Assembly (NCBI RefSeq): GCF_025244705.1
Contig: NZ_CP104207.1
Span: forward strand, 2,170,001 to 2,234,000
Reading direction: 5' to 3'
DNA: 64,000 bases
Origin: Sphingopyxis sp. PET50
GTDB lineage: Bacteria > Pseudomonadota > Alphaproteobacteria > Sphingomonadales > Sphingomonadaceae
Shown here one piece after another: positions 7,861 to 23,328 of the stretch. The translations under genes were made by a program, and so were the position numbers. The notes below the pieces were generated by a model. That model was not told the origin of the DNA, did no database searches, and saw only the letters and a list, made by a program, of their open reading frames with translations. The first letter of the stretch is position 1. Every line of letters starts with the position of its first letter.

Positions 7861-9344
7861 CCGACCCCATCGACACCCCCGTCAAGGACCAGGCCGCCCG
7901 CGACGCCGCGCTGCGCGTCGCCGATTACGAGCATGGCTGGTCCTCCGCCATCGAGACCGACTTCGCGCCCAAGGGGCTGACCGAGGACACGGTCCGCTTC
8001 ATCTCGGCGAAGAAGAACGAACCCGAATGGATGCTCGATTGGCGGCTGAAGGCGTTCCGCCACTGGCTGACGATGGACACGCCCGACTGGGCGAAGCTCA
8101 ATGTCCCGCCGATCGATTACCAAGACGCGTATTATTACGCGGCGCCCAAGGCGAAACCAAAGCTGTCGTCGCTCGACGAGGTCGATCCCGAAATTCTCGA
8201 GGTCTACAAGAAGCTCGGCATCCCGATCGAGGAGCAGAAGGTGCTCGCGGGCGTCGAGGGCGCGCGGCGGGTCGCGGTCGACGCGGTGTTCGACAGCGTC
8301 AGCGTCGCGACGACCTTCCGCGAGGAGTTGAAGCGCGCGGGCGTGATCTTCCTGTCGATCAGCGAGGCGATCCGCGAATATCCCGAACTGGTGAAGAAGT
8401 GGCTCGGCAAGGTCGTGCCGATGCACGACAATTATTTCGCCACGCTCAACTGCGCGGTCTTCTCCGACGGCACCTTCGTCTACGTGCCCGAAGGGGTGCG
8501 CTGCCCGATGGAGCTTTCCACCTATTTCCGCATCAATGCCGAGAATACCGGGCAATTCGAGCGGACTTTGATCGTCGCCGACAAGGGCGCCTATGTATCC
8601 TACCTCGAAGGCTGCACCGCGCCGATGCGCGACGAGAACCAGCTCCACGCCGCGGTGGTCGAACTGGTCGCGCTCGACGATGCCGAGATCAAATATTCGA
8701 CGGTCCAGAACTGGTATCCGGGCGACGCCGAGGGCAAGGGCGGCATCTATAATTTCGTGACCAAGCGCGCGCTGTGTCAGGGCAAGCGCAGCAAGGTGTC
8801 GTGGACGCAGGTCGAAACCGGCTCTGCGATCACCTGGAAATATCCGAGCTGCGTGCTCAACGGCGACGACAGCGTCGGCGAATTCTACTCGGTCGCGGTC
8901 ACCAACAATCATCAGCAGGCCGACACCGGCACCAAGATGATCCACAACGGCAAGCGCACGCGCTCGACCATCGTCAGCAAGGGGATCAGCGCGGGCAAGT
9001 CGAACAACACCTATCGCGGGCTGGTGCGCGTCGCGCCCAATGCCGAGGGCGTGCGCAACTTCACCCAGTGCGACAGCCTGCTGCTCGGCGACCAGTGCGG
9101 CGCGCACACCGTGCCCTACATCGAGGTCCGCAACCCTTCCGCGCAGGTCGAGCATGAGGCGACGACGAGCAAGATCAGCGACGACCAGCTCTTCTACGCG
9201 ATGCAGCGCGGGCTTTCGCAGGAAGAGGCGGTGGCACTGATCGTCAATGGGTTCGCGAAGGAAGTGCTGCAGCAGCTGCCGATGGAGTTCGCGGTCGAGG
9301 CGCAGAAATTGCTGGGGATTTCGCTGGAAGGGTCGGTGGGATGA
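7857..9344 (+). CDS. sufB: Fe-S cluster assembly scaffold subunit SufB
   Basis: Core of the cytosolic SufBC2D scaffold on which nascent Fe-S clusters are built. ATG 7857 gives 495 residues ([19 protein letters not shown]), the usual length. Conserved pieces include [31 protein letters not shown], and the [19 protein letters not shown] segment holding the catalytic cysteine. The C-terminus is [14 protein letters not shown]. No frameshift. It overlaps the regulator by ATGA upstream and the DUF559 gene by ATGA downstream, so sufB translation could drive expression of the endonuclease gene. Confidence 0.98.
9297..9344 (+). repeat. sufB 3' end, copy 1 (inside sufB)
   Basis: The last 48 bases of sufB. 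They recur at 9812-9859 with 37 of 48 bases the same and 15 of 16 codons synonymous or identical. Two serines switch between TCG and AGC codons. Confidence 0.9.
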
Positions 9345-9859
9345 ACTGGACACTCCACGATCAGGCGAAACAGCTGAACACCCCTCCCCTTCAGGGGAGG
9401 GGCCGGGGGTGGGGTCTATCGGCCTCCACCATCGAAGAGTTGCAAAGCCGCGCACGCCAGATGCGGAACAATCCGACCGAGCCCGAGAAGCGGTTGTGGC
9501 GGCATTTGTCGAATGGTCAGCTTGGGGGACACAAGTTTCGGCGCCAGCAGGTGATCAATCGTTTCATTGCGGATTTCGTTTGCCCCGCTGCGCGGCTGGT
9601 CGTCGAAGTCGATGGCGACACGCACGAAGAACTGACGGATCGCGCTCGCGACGAAGCTCTTGCACAGGAAGGCTACCGCACCATCCGCGTCAGCAATCAC
9701 GATGTAATGGCCAATATGGACGGGGTGCTTCTGTTCATAACCGAAGCCTTGCAGCAGGCCGAGAGACCCCACCCCAACCCCTCCCCTGAAGGGGAGGGGC
9801 TTGAACAGGGCGAGGCGCAGGAATTGCTGGGAATTAGCCTTGAGGGGAGCGTGGGGTGA
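9341..9859 (+). CDS. DUF559 domain endonuclease-like protein in a repeat-flanked cassette
   Basis: 172 residues. The core (about 30-140) is a DUF559/Vsr-like PD-(D/E)XK fold: [20 protein letters not shown], then [17 protein letters not shown] and [12 protein letters not shown], with the acidic and basic residues of the nuclease site. Both ends of the ORF are translated repeat: [14 protein letters not shown] near the N-terminus and [14 protein letters not shown] near the C-terminus, and the last residues are a second sufB tail. It overlaps sufB and the next gene by ATGA-type junctions. DUF559 proteins have no settled role; a DNA nuclease acting on the repeats or at the insertion site is inference. 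Confidence 0.85.
9381..9427 (+). repeat. Left inverted repeat flanking DUF559 gene
   Basis: CCCCTCCCCTTCAGGGGAGG hairpin followed by a G-rich tail and GGTCTATCGGCC. Its reverse complement matches 9754-9799 at nearly every position, so the two arms bracket the nuclease core like terminal inverted repeats. Confidence 0.85.
9754..9799 (-). repeat. Right inverted repeat flanking DUF559 gene
   Basis: Inverted copy of 9381-9427, with GACCCCACCCC followed by the palindrome CCCCTCCCCTGAAGGGGAGGGG-like end. It is translated as [12 protein letters not shown] at the C-terminus of the DUF559 protein. Confidence 0.85.
9812..9859 (+). repeat. sufB 3' end, copy 2 (after the DUF559 cassette)
   Basis: Encodes [15 protein letters not shown] and TGA, the same as the sufB end but for one residue (Lys to Glu), with eleven base differences that are otherwise synonymous. 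It now forms the C-terminus of the DUF559 ORF and joins the next gene. Confidence 0.9.
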
Positions 9860-10293
9860 TGGGCCTACCGATATTATTCGCACTTCTCTCCATGGGACAG
9901 GGTGATCCTCAGCCCGTCCGCACTGTGGAAACGGCCGAGAAAATCGGGTCGATCGAGGTGCCAGACGAAATCGCGCCCGCGATCGGCCCCTATATCACCT
10001 GCCGCATCATGGCGTCGGGCACGCCGCTGATCGTCGAGGGCAAGCCGGTGAACTATAATCTGCCCGGCCAGACGGACTGCGCCAAGGTTCGCGAGAATGC
10101 CGCGGTCGAAGCCGACAAGCTGCTCATCGGCCAAGGGATGAGCGACAAGGCCAAGCGCAAAACCTTTGTCGACCAGGCGCTGGCCGATGCCGACAACTTC
10201 ACGGCGACGCTTTCGACGCCGCAATCCTTTGCCGTTGCGCCCGATGCGCCGATGGCAACCGATGCCGCGCCCGCCGCGAAAAAGGAGCCGTGA
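9859..10293 (+). CDS. Small secreted protein of unknown function in the SUF operon
   Basis: 144 residues from ATG 9859 (a GTG three bases upstream is possible). The N-terminus [15 protein letters not shown] is a short hydrophobic segment, possibly an export signal. A central part reads PAIGPYITCRIMASG and later GQTDCAKVRENAAVEADKLL with two cysteines that could pair. The C-terminus is Ala/Pro-rich. I recognise no family. The ATG overlaps the preceding stop and its own TGA overlaps the next ATG, so it is co-translated with the operon. Confidence 0.7.
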   Translation: MGLPILFALLSMGQGDPQPVRTVETAEKIGSIEVPDEIAPAIGPYITCRIMASGTPLIVEGKPVNYNLPGQTDCAKVRENAAVEADKLLIGQGMSDKAKRKTFVDQALADADNFTATLSTPQSFAVAPDAPMATDAAPAAKKEP

Positions 10294-22843: not shown

Positions 22844-23269
22844 CTACCCCTCTCCCCTTGGGGGAGAGGGAGGGGCCCGCGCGGCGCAGCCGCGTGGGAG
22901 GGTGAGGGATCACCGGAAAGCGACGCCGCAACCACCCGGCAAACACCGTCCAAATTCTCCATCACCTCGCGGTTCGTGAAACGCAGCACCCGATACCCCT
23001 CTCGCGCCAGAAATTCCGTTCGCCGCGCGTCATAGTCGATTTGCGCCGCATGGCTATCGCCATCGACCTCTATCACCAGCCGCGCCGATTGACAGGCAAA
23101 GTCGGCCACGAAAGGGCCAAGCCGTTGTTGTCGGCGGAATTTATGCCCGCCAAGCGCCGAACCGCGAAGGACGGACCAGAGTTTCTTTTCGGCCGAGCGT
23201 CGAGTCGCGCCGTAAACGGCGAGCCCGGTCGATCGTGCCGTCGTCCGAAGTGAATCGGCTCTTCGTCAC
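22840..23269 (-). CDS. Second DUF559 endonuclease-like gene between inverted repeats, one frameshift
   Basis: From GTG 23269 ([20 protein letters not shown]) the frame shifts near 23195 and goes on as [58 protein letters not shown], the DUF559 nuclease core. The C-terminus ([20 protein letters not shown]) is translated repeat. It is homologous to the DUF559 protein after sufB but not a recent copy. The arms at 22847-22909 and 23269-23328 enclose it exactly. Its stop overlaps the aroC start. Confidence 0.75.
22847..22909 (-). repeat. Inverted repeat arm, aroC side of DUF559
   Basis: CCCCTCTCCCCTTGGGGGAG hairpin, then AGGGGCCC, a second hairpin GCGCGGC-GCA-GCCGCG, then TGGGAGGGTGAGGG. The opposite arm has the same order with a different but also self-pairing second hairpin. 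Confidence 0.85.
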
Positions 23270-23328
23270 ACCCTCACCCTCCCATCGCTTCGCGACGGGC
23301 CCCTCCCTCTCCCCCAAGGGGAGAGGGG
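23269..23328 (+). repeat. Inverted repeat arm, GNAT side of DUF559
   Basis: Reverse complement matches 22847-22909 except in the second hairpin, which is TCGC-GAA-GCGA here. The paired change keeps the stem, so structure is conserved over sequence. The DUF559 GTG start lies at the arm's inner edge. Confidence 0.85.

Follow-up and report, generated by a model that had tools for sequence, protein, structure and literature searches.

The window, that is, the whole 64-kb stretch of DNA analysed, contains two DUF559 genes, each associated with a pair of inverted arms. The first gene (9341..9859, plus strand) encodes a 172-aa DUF559 (PF04480) endonuclease. The protein matches PF04480 with an E-value of 2.9e-32 and 111.2 bits, above the family cut-off of 20.6, and gave no match to PF01797 (Y1 HUH transposase) in the profile search. 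The left framing arm (9381..9425, plus strand) consists of a 22-bp palindrome (CCCCTCCCCTTCAGGGGAGGGG) with an inward G-rich tail, and the right arm (9756..9799, minus strand) is an inverted copy of the left arm. The element is flanked by a 52-bp imperfect direct repeat, of which the first copy (9293..9344, plus strand) lies at the 3' end of sufB (SufB profile, E 2e-117) and the second (9808..9859, plus strand) corresponds to the C-terminus of the DUF559 ORF. A SufB-like tail was found in 36 of the 57 homologues aligned, out of 120 listed. The second gene shows a DUF559 domain match at 22924..23199 (minus strand) between a left arm (22846..22908, plus strand) and a right arm (23271..23329, minus strand), which are 63 nt long and 86% identical, with a perfect match in the initial 34 nt. 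Because the N-terminal part lies in a different frame from the remainder of the domain, this gene (22840-23269) looks, from its reading frames, like a pseudogene. The earlier sequence-only reading was right about the places of both genes and their inverted pairs, but the frame of the gene at 9341-9859 crosses both arms, and the ORF proposed at 22840-23269 is not intact. An Rfam search of the window yielded zero matches, and PADLOC gave a single weak match, to part of DpdF.

The five gene-less inverted pairs that the same reading had placed at 7750, 12441, 14188, 32950 and 43900 are all present. The arms of the pair at 7750..7845 are nearest to those of locus L008, another DUF559 locus of the same genome (score 56), and those of the pairs at 12440..12566 and 32949..33135 are nearest to DUF559 locus L009 (scores 83 and 70). 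The pair at 14188..14301 is of the L007/L003 type by eye and falls outside the pattern used for arm scoring, and the pair at 43900..44015, which carries a CAGCGAGACTT tail, reaches a best own-genome DUF559 arm score of only 36 (L008). In a 464-kb sample, 24 inverted pairs account for 48 of the 69 palindrome sites; 22 of the pairs are gene-less, with 37-161 bp separating the arms, and the two longer pairs contain DUF559. A gene-less unit and the L009 element have arms of ~60-70 bp in common, with 88-89% identity. This anatomy fits the proposal that gene-less copies are mobilized in trans. However, for six of the 22 gene-less pairs the resemblance to DUF559 arms found in the genome is weak (scores 31-41), and the arm type of the gene at 22840 has no exact copy anywhere else in the genome. 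When genome labels were permuted, the matching of gene-less pairs to arms of their own genome did not reach significance (66.4 versus 63.4 ± 2.1; 22 of the 36 pairs came from this genome). A G-quadruplex motif is present in 115 of 236 arms, compared with 5.2 in base shuffles; because base shuffling destroys the runs of G that any palindrome of this kind contains, this excess is a lead only.

The association of DUF559 with inverted palindromes is real and extends far beyond the window. The genome, probably of a Sphingopyxis, contains 10 DUF559 genes, nine of which are bracketed by two GC-rich palindromes in inverted orientation with a score of at least 40; the exception, L001, scores 34 and has palindromes on either side by eye. 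An assignment of carA as the gene upstream of L001 was dropped, because that frame contains stops. In 60 genomes, including this one, 87 of 109 scorable DUF559 loci were framed (22 were unframed at the chosen score) whereas only 15 of 4294 control windows taken from those stretches reached the score; a lack of enrichment next to DUF559 genes, named beforehand as contrary to the idea, was not observed. Four weak DUF559 rows (G006, G019 near 2.79 Mb, G040 and G048) were excluded from this count and were included in the correlations with DUF559 number given below. Among other mechanically predicted ORFs, 11 of 908 reached the framing score. At the class level, 17 of the 30 best DUF559 loci were framed versus 0 of 531 controls, and at the phylum level, where the draw included genomes of the same class, 14 of the 27 best versus 6 of 477 (together, 31 of 57); these are the best-scoring new loci out of all matches. 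In public genomes, the best 80 of 574 DUF559 matches were taken, one of which was too short for scoring; 55 of the remaining 79 were framed versus 1 of 1388 controls, the 55 including one N-run artefact and one long non-palindromic repeat. An artefact of chance or composition in GC-rich DNA is a negligible explanation of the framing: a reversed-pattern control also climbs with DUF559 number (rho 0.71 in the 60 genomes and 0.48 in the genus, ignoring phylogeny), but local control windows reached the framing score so rarely (15/4294, 0/531, 6/477 and 1/1388) that chance is excluded.

The sequence of the nuclease and that of its arms vary together. The Mantel rho for 114 loci was 0.53, the maximum in 500 permutations being 0.11; it was 0.49 for diverged pairs and 0.41 within genomes, where the largest permuted value was 0.30. 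The sequence-only reading had argued from the two arm families in the window that the association arose at least twice. Such separate origins are unsupported, because the co-variation fits a single old nuclease-arm association that would have diversified later.

The number of repeats also follows the presence of the nuclease. When a genome was counted as DUF559-bearing at a best E-value of 1e-12 or lower, a palindrome excess of at least 20 was found in 55 of the 80 DUF559-bearing genomes and in 10 of the 219 others (Fisher's test, 4e-30). Repeats equally abundant in genomes lacking DUF559, the outcome named beforehand as contrary to the idea, were thus not observed apart from these 10 exceptions. 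In the other families of the class, the excess was at least 20 in 30 of 36 genomes with DUF559 versus 2 of 37 without, the other 35 remaining under 20, and all 15 genomes without DUF559 in the other families of the order had an excess of -7 to 5. Among 36 genomes of the same genus, repeat number correlated with DUF559 number (rho 0.81, ignoring phylogeny). Individual genomes depart from this trend in both directions: 15 of the 80 genomes have an excess below 5 despite DUF559, and G034, of the same genus, lacks DUF559 but reaches an excess of 86. Three further genomes without DUF559 (G344, G481 and G424) contain 57, 32 and 107 copies of the strict pattern and 11, 1 and 0 copies of the reversed control, and G369 contains 0 copies of the strict pattern. 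The sequence-only reading had noted no RAYT-like gene, which was borne out for the whole genome (completeness given as 87%), where zero matches to Y1_Tnp (PF01797, the RAYT family) were detected.

Five of the 10 loci of the genome were compared with 25 genomes, and two of the sites were then examined in 20 regions each. At the site flanked by the pyruvate dehydrogenase E2 gene and lpd, six of 21 genomes have 1-2 bp only and represent empty sites, five hold one DUF559-arm family (519-523 bp), one holds a different DUF559-arm family and nine contain other sequences. The nrdA-nrdB site provides no clean empty site, because it is occupied by different repeats or by small genes in the other genomes.

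The DUF559 gene is under strong purifying selection: the median dN/dS was 0.13 (range 0.04-0.45) for 181 of the 222 pairs that were 65% or more identical. The remaining pairs lay outside a dS of 0.05-2, and the median pN/pS of all 222 pairs was 0.21. Residues E17, D45, E56, D58 and H62 are invariant in 40 members. Profile searches matched PDB 3hrl (E 1.2e-38) and, more distantly, PDB 3r3p (E 1.4e-4), which is titled a mobile intron protein and is presumably I-Bth0305I, one of the Vsr-like (EDxHD) homing endonucleases.

The core proposal of the sequence-only reading, that a DUF559 nuclease is tied to REP-like repeats lacking a RAYT, is strongly supported by the framing, by a repeat number that tracks DUF559 and not Y1 transposases, and by the zero Y1_Tnp matches in this genome. 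Because of the framing, the co-variation, the link between repeat and gene, the empty and occupied sites, the purifying selection and the gene-less units with matching arms, we are inclined to regard the DUF559 gene and its surrounding inverted palindromes as a small, mobile, REPtron-like unit in which the nuclease replaces the RAYT and may have a part in spreading or maintaining the short repeats. Such a unit of ~0.5 kb would carry a Vsr/homing-endonuclease-like nuclease in the position of the RAYT. The nuclease would recognize the hairpin or cruciform formed by its own palindrome and nick or cut there, and host repair or recombination would then copy the unit into new intergenic sites. The short gene-less pairs (about 90-200 bp) would be copied in trans as non-autonomous derivatives.

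This unit resembles the REPtron in that a small enzyme gene lies between two inverted palindromes (RAYT there, DUF559 here), in the many scattered inverted doublets (REPINs there; most repeats are paired here as well) and in the joint diversification of enzyme and repeat, with multiple families per genome. It differs in that the enzyme is a DUF559 nuclease and not a Y1/HUH tyrosine transposase (RAYT, TnpA-REP; PF01797), in that the GT(A/G)G head was found within 6 bp of the edge in 0 of 69 palindromes, and in that the repeats occur in a genome without a Y1_Tnp match. Like the Vsr-like homing endonuclease 3r3p, the DUF559 protein is a small nuclease that stands alone on a short unit; unlike it, the DUF559 gene lies within palindromic pairs, of which many gene-less copies exist. 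The match to the Vsr profile itself (E 0.0043) was below its cut-off. VsrA of Caulobacter is described, in the portion of the source available, as resembling Vsr and having a DUF559 domain (PMC12907096). As with a MITE and its parent IS, short units share their termini with a longer coding element, but the longer element carries DUF559, and no transposase was seen in the Y1_Tnp search. No clear target-site duplication was present at the E2-lpd site, the single clean site examined; a 52-bp imperfect repeat flanks the element at sufB.

Several other explanations have to be weighed. The nuclease could be a homing-type passenger that invaded pre-existing pairs, while the repeats would owe their spread to a different enzyme or to errors of replication and repair. 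The genomes with repeats and no DUF559 match (10 of 219), the 6 of 22 gene-less pairs for which a good own-genome DUF559 arm is missing and the profile similarity to 3r3p, titled a mobile intron protein, would suit such a passenger. We nevertheless consider it unlikely in view of the low excess in DUF559-free genomes of the other families of the order (15 of 15) and class (35 of 37), the co-variation of arms and nuclease, and the zero Y1 transposase matches in the genome. Even less probable is a repair or defence nuclease beneficial to the host, which would be insulated by hairpins serving as terminators or mRNA ends, with repeats spread for regulation. Strong purifying selection, the retention of the sufB-adjacent copy in many sphingomonad homologues and the link of Caulobacter VsrA, with its DUF559 domain, to the SOS response (PMC12907096, as far as its available text goes) are what such a role would lead one to expect. 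It accords poorly with the presence of different nuclease-arm families at one site depending on the genome, with the 22 gene-less pairs in the 464-kb sample and with the finding that a given type of nuclease stays paired with its own type of arm.

The inverted-pair anatomy, similar to that of REPINs and RAYT genes in the available parts of PMC3116915 and PMC2817692, could also mean that a former RAYT or IS transposase moved the repeats and that the nuclease is incidental. This we regard as highly improbable, given the absence of the GT(A/G)G head from all 69 palindromes and of Y1_Tnp matches from the genome. In addition, Y1_Tnp number was unrelated to repeat number over the 60 genomes (rho 0.05), and the value of 0.39 within the genus comes from a set in which few genomes have Y1_Tnp; both correlations ignore phylogeny.

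The sequence-only reading knew of no description of DUF559 in this role, and none of DUF559 with such repeats was found in the available portions of the open-licence literature either (PMC12907096, PMC12308824, PMC12306157, PMC5082802, PMC3733652, PMC3116915, PMC2817692), where the papers found discuss no partner enzyme of REP-like repeats other than tyrosine transposases (RAYTs and related enzymes). REP-like repeats are common bacterial intergenic DNA, and a nuclease of another fold would, if the mobile-unit reading is true, provide a partner for partnerless repeats, a second route to the origin of non-coding replicators and a role for a large family of unknown function (one DUF559 query had 1679 relatives). 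The idea is open to cutting assays with cognate versus non-cognate palindromes. We find the arguments evenly balanced on a broader proposal, namely that DUF559, GIY-YIG and GxxExxY/PDDEXK_3 nucleases, representing at least two folds, each partner their own class of short inverted repeats, and that many of the intergenic repeats that are most abundant in Pseudomonadota stem from copying driven by nucleases rather than from transposases. As a separate observation, the same framed anatomy, with other repeats, was seen for GIY-YIG and GxxExxY nucleases in the sets examined, which comprised 30 GIY-YIG loci and 30 of the 33 GxxExxY matches.

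Both DUF559 genes that the sequence-only reading placed within inverted repeat pairs in the window are present as described. The gene beside sufB (9341-9859) encodes a 172-aa product with a complete PF04480 domain (E = 2.9e-32), and both of its palindromic arms lie inside the reading frame. At 22840-23269, the DUF559 match (22924-23199, minus strand) and the arms were likewise found, but the gene is not intact: the N-terminal part of the protein is in a frame other than the rest, indicating that this copy is probably a pseudogene.

The genome of PET50, a single contig of 3.80 Mb (window at C1:2170001-2234000) with a completeness given as 87%, contains 10 DUF559 genes, counted from 12 profile rows after two that are parts of others were discounted. 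GC-rich palindromes are present near all 10, and nine loci are framed by an inverted pair scoring at least 40, the remaining locus (L001) scoring 34. In a set of 60 genomes (own genome counted), 39 of which have a DUF559 match, 113 loci were examined; four were too close to contig ends, and 87 of the 109 scored were framed, compared with 15 of 4294 control windows of the same stretches. Framing was also found in a class-wide draw, for 17 of the 30 best-scoring loci (0/531 in the control), and in a phylum-wide draw that takes in same-class and same-family genomes, for 14 of 27 new best-scoring loci (6/477 in the control). Public genomes, many of which are metagenome assemblies, were covered by the best 80 of 574 matches. 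Of these, 79 could be scored and 55 were framed (control, 1/1388), with 17 of 21 loci framed in sphingomonads, 23 of 33 in other alphaproteobacteria and 9 of 12 in beta- and gammaproteobacteria. Among the 55, L344 is a masked-base artefact and L319 has a long repeat that is non-palindromic. The association of DUF559 with framing repeats is as good as certain.

In a gene-level control, scores of at least 40 were obtained for 11 of 908 other ORFs (5 of 256 for ORFs of 90-220 aa). These 11 include three matches to the GIY-YIG profile, one PDDEXK_3 match (C1:3126833) and one Y1 transposase match (G026:C84). In the framing test, GIY-YIG and GxxExxY (PDDEXK_3) genes are framed like DUF559 genes, by repeats of other sequence: 22 of the 30 GIY-YIG loci listed (L215-L244; control, 3/598) are framed by inverted pairs of the TTCCCGCGAAAGCGGGAA, GAGCTTGTCGAAG, GTCGAGCGAAGTCGAGAC and GCTGAACTTGTTTCAGC types, and 29 of 30 GxxExxY loci (L357-L386; control, 0/510) by inverted CGCAAAG-type repeats. 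The window also contains a second palindrome class, with inverted pairs at 10679-10740 and 23873-23956 (CCCCGGCGAAAGCGGGG and CCCCGCCTTCGCGGGG types) resembling those adjoining GIY-YIG genes in relatives.

The pattern CCTCYCN{0,24}GRGAGG occurs 564 times in the PET50 genome, compared with 30 for the reversed control pattern. With kinship ignored, palindrome excess correlated with DUF559 number (rho 0.86 over the 60 genomes, 0.81 in 36 same-genus genomes and 0.71 in 24 others); the corresponding values for Y1_Tnp number were 0.05, 0.39 and 0.30. The reversed control also correlated with DUF559 number (0.71 over 60 genomes, 0.48 in the genus), and composition therefore accounts for part of the correlation. 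The expectation that repeat number follows DUF559 presence was borne out in 299 phylum-drawn genomes, with exceptions in both directions: the excess was at least 20 in 55 of 80 genomes with the gene versus 10 of 219 without it (30/36 versus 2/37 in other families of the class; 15/31 versus 8/182 in other classes). It was below 5 in 15 of the 80. Among genomes without a DUF559 match, G344, G481 and G424 have 57, 32 and 107 copies of the strict palindrome pattern (reversed control: 11, 1 and 0), and G369 has none.

A 464-kb sample of the PET50 genome (the window and 20 stretches of 20 kb) contains 69 palindromes, forming 24 inverted pairs and 21 singles. Two pairs, with arms 379 and 432 bp apart, enclose the two window genes; in the other 22 the arms are 37-161 bp apart, and no DUF559 or GIY-YIG match was found inside them. 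Sixteen of these gene-less pairs score at least 48 with an arm of an own-genome DUF559 locus (best with L009, L007, L003, L008 or L005). The other six score 31-41, and five of them have a CAGCGAGACTT tail. In gene-less copies of the L009 type, the similarity extends from the arms through the interior, so entire units have been copied; the L009 element and one gene-less unit have arms of ~60-70 bp in common (88-89%). The arm type of the 22840-23269 gene occurs exactly only round that gene, and a genome-label permutation over 36 gene-less pairs was not significant.

Two chromosomal sites, each read in 21 genomes, are in different states in different genomes. The spacer separating lpd from the pyruvate dehydrogenase E2 gene is 1-2 bp in six genomes, and contains one DUF559-arm family (519-523 bp) in five, including PET50, a different family (487 bp) in G014 and other sequence (43 bp to ~1 kb) in nine. 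Between nrdA and nrdB, one family is present in G000, G019 and G002 and a second in G024 and in G008, whose copy has an internal stop; nine genomes have 118-123 bp of sequence there, with palindromes that belong to other classes. At sufB, the 3' end of that gene (9293-9344) recurs imperfectly over 52 bp on the far side of the element (9808-9859). Many of 57 aligned homologues have the SufB-like tail (36) and the translated right (48) and left (38) arms, which shows that this copy is old. A Sphingomonas parapaucimobilis record also has a DUF559 gene next to annotated sufB.

The nuclease itself is maintained as functional, judging from a median dN/dS of 0.13 (range 0.04-0.45, 181 pairs). E17, D45, E56, D58 and H62 (first-sequence numbering) are invariant in 40 diverse members; the profile matches 3hrl, an endonuclease-like protein (1.2e-38), and more distantly 3r3p, a mobile intron protein (1.4e-4), and the Vsr match was under the cut-off. 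Protein and arm similarity co-vary across 114 framed loci (Mantel rho 0.53, against at most 0.11 in 500 permutations); rho is 0.49 for diverged pairs and 0.41 for comparisons within genomes, where permuted values reached 0.30 at most. This co-variation speaks against the earlier proposal that the association arose at least twice.

Such co-variation would be predicted by specific recognition or by long travel as a single unit. We favour, with some reservation, nuclease-driven copying of the unit, in which the enzyme would recognise and then nick its cognate palindrome, folded into a hairpin or cruciform, the nicked unit would be copied by repair or recombination, and gene-less pairs with matching ends would be copied in trans. 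The main rival, in which the nuclease is a homing-type passenger and something else spreads the repeats, appears rather unlikely. In one quoted passage, a DUF559-bearing segment also carries a transposase, which fits a putative recombinogenic role. The element is REPtron-like in anatomy, with a small enzyme gene between inverted palindromes, yet it is not a REPtron, because it has no Y1 transposase and the GT(A/G)G head is present on 0 of the 69 palindromes.

A G-quadruplex motif was matched by 115 of 236 DUF559 arms versus 5.2 expected from base shuffles, which break the G runs of palindromes. Four of six matches (L245:2453, L248:4880 in minus-strand count, L259:2701 and L261:3556) to a GGGGTGGGGAGCGG(A/G/C)C stretch, which might be a target or an outer hairpin, lie directly outside the palindrome, a non-independent count since the pattern was derived from such flanks; TGTC is present slightly upstream in three of these four loci.
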